A stretch of DNA of 47,077 nt, taken from the NCBI GenBank assembly GCA_021323605.1, contig JAJPKS010000124.1, positions 1-47,077 on the forward strand, written 5' to 3'. Below the pieces are notes generated by a model. That model ran no database searches. It saw nothing but the letters and a program-made list of their open reading frames with translations, and was not told where the DNA came from. The first letter of the stretch is position 1. Every line of letters begins with the position of its first letter. This stretch comes from Bacillota bacterium (GTDB lineage: Bacteria > Chloroflexota > Dormibacteria > Dormibacterales > Dormibacteraceae). This document shows, one piece after another, positions 1,841 through 7,596 of the stretch. Position numbers and translations under genes: made by a program.

Positions 1841-2003
1841 CGAGAGCTTACCGACCCGAATGTCCCTCCCGCCCTCCGGCGACGCATGGGACGCAGCGAG
1901 CCCCCGGCGGACGGGCGACCGAGCCCGAGCTCGTCGGGACGCGTCACCCTCCCCTTCGACGCGTCCCTCGTGGACGCGAGCCGACCCCGGGCGGATCGGG
2001 GCC

Positions 2004-2078
2004 TGGTGGCGGCGGCTGGGATCGAACCAGCGACAACACGATTATGAGTCGTGTGCTCTACCACTGAGCTACGCCGCC
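2004..2078 (-). tRNA. tRNA with CAU anticodon (elongator Met, or possibly Ile2), CCA encoded
   Basis: Reverse complement GGCGGCGTAGCTCAGTGGTAGAGCACACGACTCATAATCGTGTTGTCGCTGGTTCGATCCCAGCCGCCGCCACCA folds as a full cloverleaf: 7-bp acceptor GGCGGCG/CGCCGCC, anticodon loop CTCATAA, T arm GCTGGTTCGATCCCAGC. Confidence 0.95.
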
Positions 2079-2216
2079 GCCGGGCGATGGGGTCCGGGCC
2101 AGAGCCTCGGCCCGGGAGCACGATCGGTGCCAGCACCGACGATCGACCTCAGAAAGCTTATCGCCTCTTCCCGGCTCGAGCTGGTGAGCTCGGCCTCGAG
2201 ATCGGGAGAACGGCGC

Positions 2217-3392
2217 TCACGAGCTGGGGCCCGCGACCGGCCTCGAGGGATGACCGTTCCGGAGCCCGAAGTAGGTGCCGCCCGGCTCGAAGACCACCAG
2301 ACGGTCGAGACCCGGGATGCGCCTCCGGCCGACGACGTAGGAGCCCAGGACGCGCAGGTCCGGGGTGAAGACCTCGAAGGGATCGACCCCCCGCTCGGCC
2401 AGCAGCCGGATCACCTCCAGGGCATCGGTGACCGAGGCCCGGGAGCGGGGCCAGTGGCCCCAGAGCTTCCCGCCGCCGGCGTCGACGGGCCCTCGCAGCT
2501 CCGTATAGGCCGCAAGCCAGGCCTTGAGCTTGACCACCACGCCCCTGTCCAGAAAGGCGACCATCCGCCCGATCCGCTCCGCTTCCGCCGGCGTGGCCTC
2601 TTCGGGCGCCGGCAGCGCCATGACCGGCTGCCCCTCCATCAGGACCGGCAGGTTGTGGCGCATGAGCTGGGTGCCGGCGTCGCAGGCCCCCAGCGAGAAG
2701 GGGCACAACCGGCACTGGTCACCGGGCTTGGGCTCCCACTCGCGGTCGGCGGCGATGATCGGCGCCCAGGCCTCCAGCTCCTCACGGAAGACCTCCAGAT
2801 CCTCGAGATCGTAGGTGACGTCGGAGATCACGCCGTGCCGGAGCGCCACCAGGCGGAACTCGAAGCTCTCGACCTCGGGCTCCAGCTCGGAGACCCCGAG
2901 GCAGGCGAAGAGCCCCTGGTGTGATTCGTCCGGGTCCGGCCCCTGGCCCTCTTCGTACGCCGCCCGGTGCCGGCGAAGTCGGATCCCCTTCCAGCCGGTC
3001 TTCCAGTCCCAGATCCGAGCCACCGCGCCGTCGATGATGACGAGGTCGGGGATCGTCATCGCCACCACCTGGAGCGGCCCCTCGGGCGTCTCCAGGTCCC
3101 AGCGCCAGGTGATGGGCTCCTCGACCCACATCACCCGTCCCCCGTGCTCCAGGGCGATCAACGCCTCACGAGCGGCCCGGTCGACGAGGAGCTGGAGGTG
3201 TCGCGGGACGACCAGCTTCTCTCCGTCGCTGATCAGCCTGGCGACCGCCCGGTGGACGAGCGCCCCCTCTTCGGCCGCGTGCCCGGCCGCCACCTTGAGG
3301 TGATCGATCCGCTCCAGCTTCCAGCGGCGGGGGCAACGCTGGTAGCTGGAGAGAGCCGAGTAGGAGAGGCGCAGGCGGCCCGGGTCGGCCAT
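2217..3392 (-). CDS. PD-(D/E)XK superfamily (RecB/Cas4/AddB-like) nuclease with probable Fe-S cysteine cluster
   Basis: LSYSALSSYQRCPRRWKLERIDHL N-terminus; PDLVIIDGAVARIWDWKTGWKG nuclease core; C-terminal CRLCPFSLGAC plus the N-terminal Cys. Start overlaps the ERF stop. Confidence 0.85.
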   Translation of the reverse strand: MADPGRLRLSYSALSSYQRCPRRWKLERIDHLKVAAGHAAEEGALVHRAVARLISDGEKLVVPRHLQLLVDRAAREALIALEHGGRVMWVEEPITWRWDLETPEGPLQVVAMTIPDLVIIDGAVARIWDWKTGWKGIRLRRHRAAYEEGQGPDPDESHQGLFACLGVSELEPEVESFEFRLVALRHGVISDVTYDLEDLEVFREELEAWAPIIAADREWEPKPGDQCRLCPFSLGACDAGTQLMRHNLPVLMEGQPVMALPAPEEATPAEAERIGRMVAFLDRGVVVKLKAWLAAYTELRGPVDAGGGKLWGHWPRSRASVTDALEVIRLLAERGVDPFEVFTPDLRVLGSYVVGRRRIPGLDRLVVFEPGGTYFGLRNGHPSRPVAGPSS

Positions 3393-4372
3393 CAGGCGGC
3401 GGTGGAGGCCAGCACCTTGGCCATGGCCTCGCGCGCGGCCGCGACGTGGGCGCAGCCCTCACCGCAAACCCTCTCATGGGCTGCGACCAGCTCCCGCCCG
3501 ACGGCGCCGTAGGGATCGGCGTCCCCCCCGTCCCGGTGGTGCTTCACCCGTTGGTGGACCTTGGCCGGCCACCACGTCTCCCCCTTGCCCTTGGGCAGGT
3601 CCACGGCGAGACGGTCCAGCACCGCGAGCGCGCCCATCTGCTGGGCCTCGGTCAGGGCGGTCCGGCTCGGAGCCGCCGTCTCGGCCGAGGGAGGTACCCC
3701 ATCGGAACCCGTCTCGATGGGGATCCCCGAGGGTTCCGGTCCGGCCTGCTCGCGGGCTCGCCTCTCGGCCGCCCGGGCCCTCTGGGCGGCCCTGGTCGCG
3801 GCGAGGGCCTCGGCCGCCGCCCCGGGGACGCCGTCGGCCGAAGCTCCCCGGAGCGCGGCCCGGGGCTCCCCCCTGGGGTTCCCCATCGGAACCCGTTCCG
3901 ATGGGGTCCCCTCCTCGTCGCCGACCAGGGCGCCGTCCGGGTCCTCCCGGTCGCTGATCTTGAACAGCTTCATCAGCGCGTACTTCTCGGCGCTGGTGCC
4001 CGCCTTCTGGGTGGCCTTGTCCTGGTTATCCAGCGCCTCCCCGGGCCACTCGATGGTGAAGCGATCGTCCGGTCGATCGGCGTTGATCACGGTCAGGGTC
4101 AGGTCGCCGGTGACCCGGTGGGCCACCTTGCCGCCCTCCCTGGGCACCGCCTCGCGGCCGGCGACGCGCATCGAAGGGATGATCGTGACCCCGTGCTTGA
4201 CCAACAGGGTTCGGAGCCGTCCCATGATCTGGGCGTGCTCGATGAACTCGTAACCGCCCATCCGGGGATCGGCCTGTCCGGTCTTCTCGATCGCGCCCAG
4301 CTCCTGGGTGATGGCCAGGATGCGCTGGTAGATGTTGGGGGAGGGAGCGACTCCCTCTGGCTTGCCTGCCAC
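3392..4372 (-). CDS. ERF-family single-strand annealing recombinase
   Basis: IYQRILAITQELGAIEKTGQADPRMGGYEFIEHAQIMGRLRTLLVKHGVTIIPS...DNQDKATQKAGTSAEKYALMKLFKISDREDPDG is a typical ERF domain. GTG start preceded by AGGAGG. Confidence 0.88.
   Translation of the reverse strand: MAGKPEGVAPSPNIYQRILAITQELGAIEKTGQADPRMGGYEFIEHAQIMGRLRTLLVKHGVTIIPSMRVAGREAVPREGGKVAHRVTGDLTLTVINADRPDDRFTIEWPGEALDNQDKATQKAGTSAEKYALMKLFKISDREDPDGALVGDEEGTPSERVPMGNPRGEPRAALRGASADGVPGAAAEALAATRAAQRARAAERRAREQAGPEPSGIPIETGSDGVPPSAETAAPSRTALTEAQQMGALAVLDRLAVDLPKGKGETWWPAKVHQRVKHHRDGGDADPYGAVGRELVAAHERVCGEGCAHVAAAREAMAKVLASTAA
3697..3722. repeat. Palindromic repeat copy A inside the ERF gene
   Basis: CCCCATCGGAACCCGTCTCGATGGGG; imperfect inverted repeat, near-identical to copy B. 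Confidence 0.75.
3881..3906. repeat. Palindromic repeat copy B inside the ERF gene
   Basis: CCCCATCGGAA-CCCG-TTCCGATGGGG; perfect 11-bp inverted repeat with 4-nt loop. Confidence 0.8.
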
Positions 4373-4392
4373 TGCAATCCTCCTGGTTCGAT

Positions 4393-4485
4393 TCGAGTCA
4401 CCCCAGAATTCGAGTCATTCCGAAATCTGATCGATTAGATTTGATATTGACTCGATTGAACTAGAAATTATATCCATTTGACTCG
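4393..4485. promoter_or_regulatory. AT-rich operator/promoter region upstream of ERF with four TCGAGTCA/TGACTCG(A) sites
   Basis: TCGAGTCA at 4393-4400 and 4410-4417, TGACTCGA at 4448-4455, TGACTCG at 4479-4485. Minus-strand TATAAT at 4467-4472. Strikingly AT-rich in a GC-rich window. Confidence 0.6.
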
Positions 4486-4914
4486 CTTCAAATAGGTGGC
4501 CGGGCGTCCGACCACGTATTCCTCCACGGGTTTGCCCATCTCCCGGGCCCGGTCGCGCGTCCAGCCGGAGTCCTGGGGGGAGCCATCGGGCACCAGGATG
4601 CGGACCAGGCGGTCGCAGTCCCGGGCGATCCTCAGGCCGCGCTCCCGGTACGCCGAACCGCCGTGGCCCTGCGGCGGGTGCCCGACCACGGGGATACCGC
4701 GGCGGCGAGCACGTACCGTCGCCAGCCGTTCCACGCCAGGGGATCCGCCCGAGATCACGAGCTCCGGTCGGTACTCGTCCAGCAGGCGCTCGATCAACCG
4801 GACCACGATCTCGAGGTGCCAGGGAGCCACGTACCGGCCCTGGCTGCCGACGATGGCCAGCCTCACCCCGGCCCTGTTCTGTGCCCCGGCCGGAAACCGG
4901 GAGGGCCCGGTCAC
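4468..4914 (-). CDS. SLOG/DprA-like Rossmann-fold protein (start uncertain)
   Basis: VRLAIVGSQGRY...LVISGGSPGVERLATVRARRRGIPVVGHPP...SAYRERGLRIARDCDRLVRI pattern. Upstream part of the 302-aa ORF is low-complexity and overlaps ssb, so a later GTG start (4914 or 4866) is preferred. Confidence 0.7.
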   Translation of the reverse strand: MTGPSRFPAGAQNRAGVRLAIVGSQGRYVAPWHLEIVVRLIERLLDEYRPELVISGGSPGVERLATVRARRRGIPVVGHPPQGHGGSAYRERGLRIARDCDRLVRILVPDGSPQDSGWTRDRAREMGKPVEEYVVGRPATYLKRVKWI

Positions 4915-4989
4915 CTCTCCGTCTCCCGGCCGGGGTCCGCCCGCCACCGGGCGTGGCCCGGCGAGCCGGGATCGCGCCACCCCCTCCGA

Positions 4990-5021
4990 CCGCCAGCCCG
5001 GCTCCGGAGCCGGGCTGGCGG
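4990..5021. repeat. Perfect 32-bp palindrome between ssb and the SLOG gene
   Basis: CCGCCAGCCCGGCTCC-GGAGCCGGGCTGGCGG, 16-bp arms with no spacer. Confidence 0.85.
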
Positions 5022-5035
5022 TGTCGACGGCACCA

Positions 5036-5437
5036 TCAGAATCCAACCTCCGCGTGGGAACCGGCGCTTCCGGCACGGTCCTCCTCGCCCGAGCGCCCGG
5101 TCCGAGGGCGCGCCTTCGACCCGCCCAGGAACTCGACGCGAGTCGCGACGACCTCGACCGCTGTTCGCCGCTGCCCGTCCCGCGTCTCCCAGGTGCGGGG
5201 CCGTAGCCTGCCTTCGATGCCCACCCGCTGCCCCCTGGCCAGGTGCTGGCCAACCGACTCGGCCTGGTCGCCGAAGACGACGATGCGATGCCAGTCCGTG
5301 ACCTCCTGCCATTCGCCGTTCTGGTCCCGCCGACGCCGGCGGGTGGCGAGGCTGAGTCGGGCCACCGGCCGGCCACCGGCCGTATACCTCAGGTCGGGGT
5401 CCGCCCCCAGTCGACCGATCAGGACGACCACGTTCAC
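5036..5437 (-). CDS. ssb: Single-stranded DNA-binding protein
   Basis: MNVVVLIGRLGADPDLRYTAGGRPVARLSLATRRR...DWHRIVVFGDQAESVGQHLARGQRVGIEGRLRPRTWETRDGQRRTAVEVVATRVEFLG is a canonical OB-fold SSB. Confidence 0.93.
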   Translation of the reverse strand: MNVVVLIGRLGADPDLRYTAGGRPVARLSLATRRRRRDQNGEWQEVTDWHRIVVFGDQAESVGQHLARGQRVGIEGRLRPRTWETRDGQRRTAVEVVATRVEFLGGSKARPRTGRSGEEDRAGSAGSHAEVGF

Positions 5438-5593
5438 CGCCGCTCCTCCGCGGCCAGGGGTGCCCGGGCTCCATGGGCACGGCCGGCGAGCGCCGGCAAC
5501 GACGCCGCCGGTCGCCGACCCTCCCGACCGGACGCGATTCTCCGCCCTCGCCCCGGCTCGGGGTGGAATGGGACCGCCCCTCGCCCACCTCGC

Positions 5594-5902
5594 TCATCCA
5601 TCTCCGCCGCTCCCCCTCAGGACGAAGCGGGCCGGTTGCAACCGGTCGAACGCCGCCTCGATGGCCTGGGCCGCGGGCGGCAGCTCGACGACGACCGCCG
5701 TCGACGGCTTCGCCTCGACCAGCAGGACGTAGCGGGTGGCGACCCAGCAGGCGGCGATCAGACGGTCGCCATAAACCCGACGCGCCGCGCAATAGGTGGG
5801 GCTGCACCGCGCCGGGTCGACGCCTCGGGCCCGCAACCGGATCGCGGTCAGGATGTCGTCCTGGCCAACGGTGAGGGAAACGGCTTCGGCGTCAACGGTC
5901 AT
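5594..5902 (-). CDS. Hypothetical protein (102 aa) in recombination module
   Basis: Non-repetitive translation MTVDAEAVSLTVGQDDILTAIRLRARGVDPARCSPTYCAARRVYGDRLIAACWVATRYVLLVEAKPS; co-oriented with ssb. Confidence 0.6.
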   Translation of the reverse strand: MTVDAEAVSLTVGQDDILTAIRLRARGVDPARCSPTYCAARRVYGDRLIAACWVATRYVLLVEAKPSTAVVVELPPAAQAIEAAFDRLQPARFVLRGSGGDG

Positions 5903-5993
5903 GATCGATCCCCCGCTCGTTCCCGGTGACGCCCGGGGTCAGGACCGTCCCGACCCCTCGGGCCTTCCACCCGGCCGGCGCCGCGTCGGGCAT
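5892..5993 (-). CDS. Possible 33-aa leader ORF (MPDAAPAGWKARGVGTVLTPGVTGNERGIDHDR)
   Basis: AGGAGG ten nt upstream; stop overlaps the start of the 102-aa ORF. Confidence 0.35.
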   Translation of the reverse strand: MPDAAPAGWKARGVGTVLTPGVTGNERGIDHDR

Positions 5994-6033
5994 GGCGACA
6001 CGACCTCCTCGATGCCGCGTTGTCCGCCTCCAT

Positions 6034-6055
6034 CGAATACTTGTTCGCTATTGTA
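6034..6055 (-). promoter_or_regulatory. Candidate SOS/LexA box plus -10 element for the recombination operon
   Basis: Minus strand TACAAT-AG-CGAACAAGTATTCG; one mismatch from the CGAAC-N4-GTTCG palindrome. Confidence 0.5.
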
Positions 6056-6383
6056 CCCGGTATCGATCCGATATGGATTCGACTCGTTTCCAGTCCATCT
6101 CGTCCCCACTCGGTTCCAGTTCTAATCCATCTCCATTGACGTCCTGAGGGCTCCCATCCGACCGAGCGGCTCCGGCGGCTCGCGCCGGCGGGCCCGTCCA
6201 CCTCCTCGACCGCCCACCCGGCTCGTTCCGGCCGCCGCTGTACGTCTCTGCCTCCGTTCTGTGACAATGACCCCGCGTGCGAGAACGGGTTGCAGCTGGC
6301 ACCGTGACCTCTACGACCGAGTCAACCCGTGCCCGTCACCCCAGTCTTCGGATCGGCTGGCGCATCGAGCAGCGGTCCGCGGC

Positions 6384-6406
6384 GAACGACGGATGGTGAG
6401 TCGTTC
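6384..6406. promoter_or_regulatory. Inverted repeat GAACGAC-N9-GTCGTTC upstream of HTH gene
   Basis: Perfect 7-bp arms, 9-nt spacer; TACTAT at 6421-6426 could be a -10. Confidence 0.45.
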
Positions 6407-6484
6407 AGCACCGGCCGTGCTACTATTGCGCCGGGCTGGAATCCGATGCGACCCGATGCAATCGACGGTAATTGGGAGGTACGT

Positions 6485-6784
6485 ATGCCGAGGCCAAAGC
6501 TCCCGCCTCTCCGCGAGGAAGACATCGGGAGGCTCGACCGGGATTGGTACAGCGTGCGTGATCTCGCCTGGCGGCTTCAGGTCAACGAGGAGACGATTCA
6601 GGATTGGATACGGGGGACCAACACCCCCGTTCCCCTCCCCGCCACCTGGCTCGGAGGGTCGGCGGGATATCGGATCGCGCACGAGGACCTGATCGCCTTC
6701 CTCAAGCAGCGACGGGGCCTGCGACCGGTTCGCGGCGCCGAGGGACGGGTACGGGCGTCGGCCTCGGATTCGCAGTCCCGATGA
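6485..6784 (+). CDS. Excisionase/MerR-like helix-turn-helix DNA-binding protein
   Basis: WYSVRDLAWRLQVNEETIQDWIRGTNTPVPLPATWLGGSAGYRIAHEDLIAFLKQRRG matches the helix-turn-helix plus beta-wing pattern of excisionase-family proteins; GGGAGG before ATG. Confidence 0.75.
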   Translation: MPRPKLPPLREEDIGRLDRDWYSVRDLAWRLQVNEETIQDWIRGTNTPVPLPATWLGGSAGYRIAHEDLIAFLKQRRGLRPVRGAEGRVRASASDSQSR

Positions 6785-6881
6785 AGGCAGCCGGGCATCG
6801 CCGCGCCGCCATCCGGCGCCGGCCGCGTGGCGACGTCCCGGCCCCCCGCCGTCTCCGAGGCGGCCAGGCGCCGGGGCCCGG

Positions 6882-6965
6882 CTAACGGGTCGCGCGCGCC
6901 CTCGTCTTCAGCTTGCGCTTGCGGGCCCGGTGCTTGGCCAGGGCCACCCGCTTTCGCTTGTTCAT
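6882..6965 (-). CDS. 27-aa very basic protein, possibly AURKAIP1/bS22-like ribosome-associated
   Basis: MNKRKRVALAKHRARKRKLKTRARATR; the pattern resembles the small basic bS22/AURKAIP1 family. Downstream of tRNA-fMet. Confidence 0.5.
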   Translation of the reverse strand: MNKRKRVALAKHRARKRKLKTRARATR

Positions 6966-7001
6966 CCAGCTGCCCCCACGTCGAAGCGTGTCGCGACCAT
7001 G

Positions 7002-7031
7002 GACAAAGAAAAGAGCCGGCCGCGCCGGCTC
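7002..7031 (-). terminator. Rho-independent terminator after tRNA-fMet
   Basis: Minus strand GAGCCGGC-GCG-GCCGGCTC followed by TTTTCTTTGTC. Confidence 0.85.
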
Positions 7032-7049
7032 CTCGGGAACGTTCCGGGT

Positions 7050-7124
7050 TGGTTGCGGGGGTCGGATTCGAACCGACGACCTTCGGGTTATGAGCCCGAC
7101 GGGCTGCCACTGCCCCACCCCGCG
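7050..7124 (-). tRNA. Initiator tRNA-fMet (CAU), CCA encoded
   Basis: CGCGGGGTGGGGCAGTGGCAGCCCGTCGGGCTCATAACCCGAAGGTCGTCGGTTCGAATCCGACCCCCGCAACCA. C1xA72 mismatch and GGG/CCC anticodon-stem pairs are initiator hallmarks. Confidence 0.95.
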
Positions 7125-7164
7125 CCCGTAAGTATACCGGACTGGTTCCGGGAGGCACACCGTC

Positions 7165-7596
7165 TCATCGACGGAAGGGCGCGCTCACGATGCCCCAGAG
7201 CACCTGCGCCGGGCTGTCGGGCCCGAGGTCTCCCTCGCCACCCCCGGCGGCGGGCGGCGGCGAGGCCGGAGGCTGCCCCACCAGGTAGAGCCGCTCGCCG
7301 GAGCGCGCGTAACCGTTCATCCGGGCGTCCTCCTCCACGGCCGCACCCGAGGACACGGCGGTGATGTCCCGGCGGTAGGCCGCGTTGGCGGCCCGGAGGG
7401 CGGCGTTCTGAGCCTGCAGCTCGGCCGCCTGGCGGTTCAGCGATCGTTCGAGGGCGATGGCCCGGGCCAGCGACCAGAGCAGCCACAGGGCCACCAGGGC
7501 CATGGCGATCAGGACGACCGTCTCGTGGGAGAGGCGGCCCCGGGCGTTCAGCGTGCCTCTGGTGGCCAGGGCTCTTCTCGCGCGCATGGAGGACAC
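7165..7596 (-). CDS. FtsB/DivIC-family septum formation initiator
   Basis: Short N-terminus, one TM segment (VVLIAMALVALWLLWSLARAIAL), then coiled coil (ERSLNRQAAELQAQNAALRAANAAYRRDI); sits between mazG and tilS. Confidence 0.8.
   Translation of the reverse strand: MSSMRARRALATRGTLNARGRLSHETVVLIAMALVALWLLWSLARAIALERSLNRQAAELQAQNAALRAANAAYRRDITAVSSGAAVEEDARMNGYARSGERLYLVGQPPASPPPAAGGGEGDLGPDSPAQVLWGIVSAPFRR

Follow-up and report, generated by a model that had tools for sequence, protein, structure and literature searches.

A phage-type ERF annealase, exonuclease and SSB cassette in the ftsB-tilS tRNA interval of a Dormibacteraceae genome

The sequence analysed here as a whole, referred to below as the window, is a 47-kb contig (JAJPKS010000124.1, our C394) of a 4.35-Mb Dormibacteraceae draft genome (494 contigs, 89% completeness), the closest named relatives of which are, by comparison of MazG, soil Chloroflexi metagenome-assembled genomes. 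Between the ftsB and tilS genes of this contig lies a segment of about 4.8 kb that encodes an ERF-family annealing protein, a PD-(D/E)XK exonuclease, a single-stranded DNA-binding protein (SSB) and a few further proteins. In our view the segment probably (about 0.7) arrived by horizontal transfer: it would be the early-region recombination cassette of some temperate phage or related mobile element, now stranded in an interval that tolerates insertions. The direct support consists of the family identities of the proteins, their intact open reading frames (ORFs), the nuclease motif, the insertion at a junction that is near-empty elsewhere, the absence of the cassette in relatives, and precedents in phages.

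The ancestral site and the inserted segment

Ancestrally, the family has the order pth-mfd-mazG-ftsB-tRNA(fMet)-27-aa basic ORF-tRNA(CAU)-tilS, and in twelve family members both tRNA genes are on one contig with a spacing of about 155-365 bp. In a congener (G001, locus L090) the distance from the 27-aa ORF to the tRNA(CAU) is only 20-25 bp compared to about 4.8 kb in the window, and gaps are also short at the equivalent junction in other relatives that have the 27-aa ORF. Given this congener junction, the segment is not ancestral but was acquired by insertion, and within the genomes sampled it is specific to this lineage. The features of the region are as follows.

2004-2078, minus strand: tRNA(CAU), ancestral, right boundary of the insertion in transcript sense (ARAGORN, Rfam, synteny)
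2079-6881: acquired segment, about 4.8 kb, from the 27-aa ORF to the tRNA(CAU), ends uncertain by some tens of bases
2217-3392, minus strand: PD-(D/E)XK exonuclease, Cas4/AddB-like (PF12705, phrog_69), 391 aa
3392-4372, minus strand: ERF-family single-strand annealing protein (PF04404, phrog_155), core at about residues 1-160, low-complexity tail
4391-4488: AT-rich putative control region, 98 bp, before the ERF gene, with four CGAGTCA sites (two direct, two inverted)
4468-4914, minus strand: SLOG-superfamily (YspA/YAcAr, DUF2493-like) Rossmann protein, start GTG at 4914 or 4866, weak PF10686 match
5036-5437, minus strand: accessory SSB (PF00436, E=9e-37)
5594-5902, minus strand: 102-aa orphan ORF, GC3 (G+C at third codon positions) 0.85, no family, low-confidence fold
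6485-6784, plus strand: divergent HTH_17 (excisionase/MerR-type helix-turn-helix, HTH) DNA-binding protein (PF12728, phrog_66), 99 aa
6882-6965, minus strand: 27-aa basic ORF, ancestral, left boundary of the insertion in transcript sense, 70-92% conserved in relatives
7050-7124, minus strand: initiator tRNA-fMet, ancestral, with a C1:A72 mismatch and three G-C pairs in the anticodon stem

A preliminary description of this DNA had listed the ERF gene, the overlapping nuclease, the SSB, the small ORFs, the HTH gene and the two tRNA genes, all of which were recovered at these coordinates by profile searches and tRNA calls; the SLOG/Rossmann ORF is likewise present, but its family call is weak. 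A longer HTH start at 6329 was not sustained, as the codon adaptation index falls to 0.37 in the stretch that precedes the ATG at 6485. The insertion does lie between two tRNA genes in a housekeeping block, as proposed, though more exactly between the stop of the 27-aa ORF and the tRNA(CAU) (about 2079-6881). That a phage-type annealase/exonuclease/SSB module was acquired at this site agrees with our data (the site is near-empty in most family members, the congener included, and the 60 related genomes yielded no ERF relative), and comparison of the ftsB-tilS interval across relatives, suggested in the same description, revealed a cassette-free ancestral arrangement. The absence of a visible integrase or structural gene, on which it had denied the segment the rank of an obvious prophage, was also borne out: neither tyrosine nor serine recombinase domains (PF00589, PF00239) were matched on the window contig, although both are present elsewhere in the host genome.

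The GC3 of the cassette ORFs (0.78-0.92) is the same as in host genes and their codon usage is near that of the host, so that they are genes rather than chance reading frames. No sigma-70-like promoter was found in the cassette region.

Unrelated other DNA occupies the same tRNA-tRNA interval in the relatives G001, G010 and G008 (in the first two it lies ahead of the 27-aa ORF), which indicates that the interval tolerates insertions; repeated uptake of unrelated insertions at this place is a feature of the lineage. Around the same tRNA genes, the congener carries apparent reverse-transcriptase remnants and an antisense alpha/beta-hydrolase gene (L090, 4072-5848; recognised by eye). On another contig of the same congener, tilS is preceded by a NUDIX gene and a zinc-ribbon fragment of Cas12f1/TnpB type (L006, 1-1423). 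In two other family members the interval is filled by long single open frames of 757 and 850 aa (L050, 7310-9583; L055, 1847-4399).

Both tRNA genes flanking the segment have the anticodon CAU. The one at 2004-2078 (minus strand) sits directly before tilS in most family members. TilS is the enzyme that modifies tRNA-Ile(CAU), and this tRNA may therefore be tRNA-Ile2 rather than elongator Met, with the enzyme gene placed beside the gene of its substrate. The 27-aa ORF (6882-6965, minus strand) is Lys/Arg-rich (MNKRKRVALAKHRARKRKLKTRARATR) and kept between the two tRNA genes family-wide; it has no Pfam match, and by its appearance it may belong with very small ribosomal proteins such as bS22/mS38 (AURKAIP1/COX24).

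Proteins and putative control sites of the cassette

The ERF protein matched PF04404 with E=7e-13 and 49.2 bits (curated cut-off 25) and phrog_155 with E=7e-27 and 95.9 bits, and an alignment (A2) displays invariant positions common to it and phage ERFs. It belongs to the ERF family by its core domain, from which single-stranded DNA (ssDNA) annealing and ring oligomers are predicted. The ERF tail contains two near-identical palindromes, in frame within the coding sequence (3693-3727 and 3877-3911; CCCCATCGGAACCCGT..CGATGGGG); a dispersed repeat family was considered and rejected, since the genome has one further copy only, an imperfect one on contig C475.

The start of the exonuclease gene shares one base with the ERF stop. 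Its product matched PF12705 (E=1e-17, 65 bits, cut-off 22) and phrog_69 (E=1e-16) and retains D116 and D129-W-K131 (a D...DxK motif), H47 and the cysteines C20, C227, C230 and C237. The four-cysteine pattern, which we liken to that of Cas4/AddB-kind nucleases, resembles an iron-sulfur (Fe-S) type, and a bound Fe-S cluster is predicted. A PADLOC scan showed no clear component of a known anti-phage defence system among the cassette proteins (the exonuclease was weakly Cas4-like and the HTH protein weakly mad1-like, both with E of 0.004 or worse). Searches with the exonuclease in the class and phylum gave mostly short N-terminal matches within open frames of about 300-1055 aa, which probably belong to other PD-(D/E)XK nucleases and were rejected as cassette homologues.

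The cassette SSB is an accessory extra copy, because the housekeeping ssb is found elsewhere, on contig C67 between bS6- and bS18-like genes (rpsF-ssb-rpsR), and the two proteins are 45% identical. Of the genome's further SSB loci, one lies next to conjugation-like membrane genes (judged by eye) and two are fragments at contig ends; none is accompanied by cassette genes, and they were rejected as cassette copies. The positions of the two fragments (L113, L114), which terminate contigs C152 and C228, suggest that the assembly broke at an ssb gene.

The SLOG assignment is weak: the match to PF10686 (YAcAr; E=1.4e-5, 25.2 bits) is under the curated cut-off of 28.2 bits. A single-sequence structural model of low confidence (mean predicted local distance difference test score, pLDDT, 60) retrieved MCP, LOG, DprA and YpsA folds with Foldseek E values of 3e-3 or weaker, which fits the SLOG superfamily but tells nothing of function. 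For the 102-aa orphan no family was matched in Pfam and PHROG profile searches, and searches of solved structures by sequence returned nothing relevant for the cassette. The HTH_17 profile score of the divergent gene is barely above the cut-off.

The motif CGAGTCA occurs five times in the window, all inside the 4.8-kb insertion: four copies lie at 4394-4485, where the GC content dips to 38% (4401-4500), and one at 6318, upstream of the HTH gene. The cluster is suggestive of a putative operator of the ERF-exonuclease operon; the motif was picked after viewing the region, and in a control with any 10-mer 2 of 150 shuffles did equally well. Only the SLOG protein, the 102-aa orphan and this clustered motif are unusual parts of the cassette.

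Origin of the cassette and alternative explanations

The distribution of the cassette proteins was examined at several levels. Among the 60 related genomes the search with the ERF protein found no real relative (one weak match in G028, E=5e-4, aligns with the region that follows the ERF core), and the ERF profile was matched in 6 of 400 genomes of the phylum, the window genome included. At least three of the other five phylum ERF genes adjoin tail, terminase or integrase genes (a tape-measure gene in L058, a terminase in L062, and an integrase within 20 kb in L059); the neighbours in L060 include genes for an SSB, a helicase and a transposase, while the L061 contig, 4.4 kb long, carries an SSB as well as a partial match resembling an anti-repressor. 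In INPHARED, 102 records contain an ERF, with about 26-33% identity over the core among the matches listed. The viral contigs held no close homologues of the ERF, exonuclease, SLOG, HTH and 102-aa proteins, and the SSB query found four distant loci there (33-38% identity). The ERF was not found in one-genome-per-species contigs; on plasmids it had one distant match and the exonuclease none. No second copy of the ERF, exonuclease or SLOG gene is present in the host genome, and no second genome with the ERF, exonuclease, SSB and SLOG set was found, so a conserved co-occurrence of the four outside prophages, for which the preliminary description had proposed a search, cannot be claimed.

Several results weigh against an origin from a temperate phage or a related element. 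Genes for an integrase, a terminase or a capsid are absent from the segment, as are att repeats, and in 1900-7200 there is neither a direct repeat of at least 14 bp joining its two ends nor a duplication of a tRNA 3' end. None of the cassette proteins has a close homologue in the phage, plasmid and viral-contig searches made, which thus point to no donor element, and the exonuclease resembles that of Rhodobacteraceae phage LS06-2018-MD06 at the profile level only, without a meaningful BLAST match. Codon usage like that of the host could stem from a host-adapted phage, but equally from long residence or from selection. The segment is filed as a phage-type cassette and not as a prophage because the contig lacks an integrase domain and the ends lack a flanking repeat; structural and packaging genes are also missing from it.

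It could also be a stand-alone chromosomal recombination or repair operon that the host has domesticated and retained, the SLOG protein adding a mediator or nucleotide-sensing step to ERF, exonuclease and SSB. Every ORF is intact with host-like GC3 and codon usage, other phage genes are absent, DprA is among the weak fold matches of the low-confidence SLOG model, and CGAGTCA is common to the ERF operon and the region upstream of the HTH gene, for which reason regulatory control may be retained. Yet the cassette is in one genome only, the congener and the family are without it, no second instance of the four genes was found, and an intact ORF that has no homologues for comparison does not demonstrate selection; we consider such an operon unlikely. 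Still less likely, in our opinion, is its fuller version, in which a free-standing annealase-exonuclease-SSB operon, retained by the host under a repressor and operator of its own, would include the SLOG protein as a novel accessory, either mediator or sensor, and would serve outside any phage to repair the chromosome or to take up foreign DNA.

That the segment is itself a small mobile element (phage-satellite-like or excisionase-carrying), integrated by the recombinase of a helper and with the HTH_17 protein as its excisionase, is suggested by the excisionase-like HTH, the site adjoining tRNA genes and the integrases encoded elsewhere in the genome. We judge it improbable, below either form of the host-kept operon, as the SLOG, ERF and exonuclease genes are single-copy, the repeat and duplication noted above are lacking, and the segment is located 5' of the tRNA(CAU) and 3' of the small ORF rather than at a tRNA 3' end; from the lack of a repeat and this position, integration targeted to a tRNA gene is not demonstrated. 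An assembly chimera, with a phage fragment joined into a chromosomal contig, might be thought of in a draft metagenomic assembly this fragmented and incomplete, but it is highly improbable: the segment lies well inside one contig and is bordered on either side by an unbroken run of the conserved genes expected there, its GC content and codon usage match the contig, and two independent false joins at the same short ancestral junction would be needed.

In the stranded phage-type cassette that we prefer, the Fe-S PD-(D/E)XK exonuclease would resect double-strand ends, the ERF protein would anneal the exposed strand to complementary ssDNA, and the accessory SSB would protect and present ssDNA, all as expected from knowledge of these families. 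The divergent HTH protein would control the operon, perhaps via the CGAGTCA cluster, and the remainder of the donor element would have been lost; biochemistry, regulation and loss are what we infer. Seen in one genome, the cassette may be active, under selection or a remnant.

Comparison with known systems

The preliminary description had also raised an undescribed chromosomal recombination or repair system, which we do not follow: the ERF-exonuclease pair has a direct phage precedent (PMC3945230), linkage of ERF and SSB is usual in phages (PMC8093625), and the clearer ERF genes of the phylum adjoin phage or integrase genes, which leaves the SLOG and HTH proteins alone to carry the claim. On present evidence no new recombination system is revealed. 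What is new is a pair, ERF and Fe-S-type PD-(D/E)XK exonuclease, from Chloroflexota, whose phage pool is poorly sampled; it could serve as a recombineering candidate for high-GC bacteria.

The annealase and exonuclease genes are adjacent and co-oriented with an accessory SSB gene nearby, as in a two-component phage recombination module, and the cassette core is a known kind of module because both linkages are precedented in phages. Most Erf proteins derive from temperate phages, prophages or remnants, and in Firmicutes phages ssb adjoins almost 80% of the erf genes (PMC8093625). In phage LS06-2018-MD06 (OP947162) the gene order is that of the window: a phrog_155 ERF gene comes first and is overlapped by a phrog_69 exonuclease gene, whose product is about as long (397 aa versus 391 aa). 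No SSB or SLOG protein is annotated beside this pair, however, and it lies within a full phage genome. In phage ct7QV12 (MW202713) the ERF, exonuclease and SSB functions are likewise in one gene run, whereas its exonuclease is RecE-type (phrog_149/434) and an integrase is close by. Phage D3 of P. aeruginosa, a whole temperate phage, also has its exonuclease gene directly downstream of the erf annealase gene, although the exonuclease is annotated as YqaJ-type (PF09588) rather than PF12705; put in place of lambda Red, the D3 erf-exo pair recombined about equally well (PMC3945230). Lambda Red and RecET share with the cassette the logic of 5' resection and strand annealing, but their annealases are of the Redbeta/RecT family and their exonucleases of other families.

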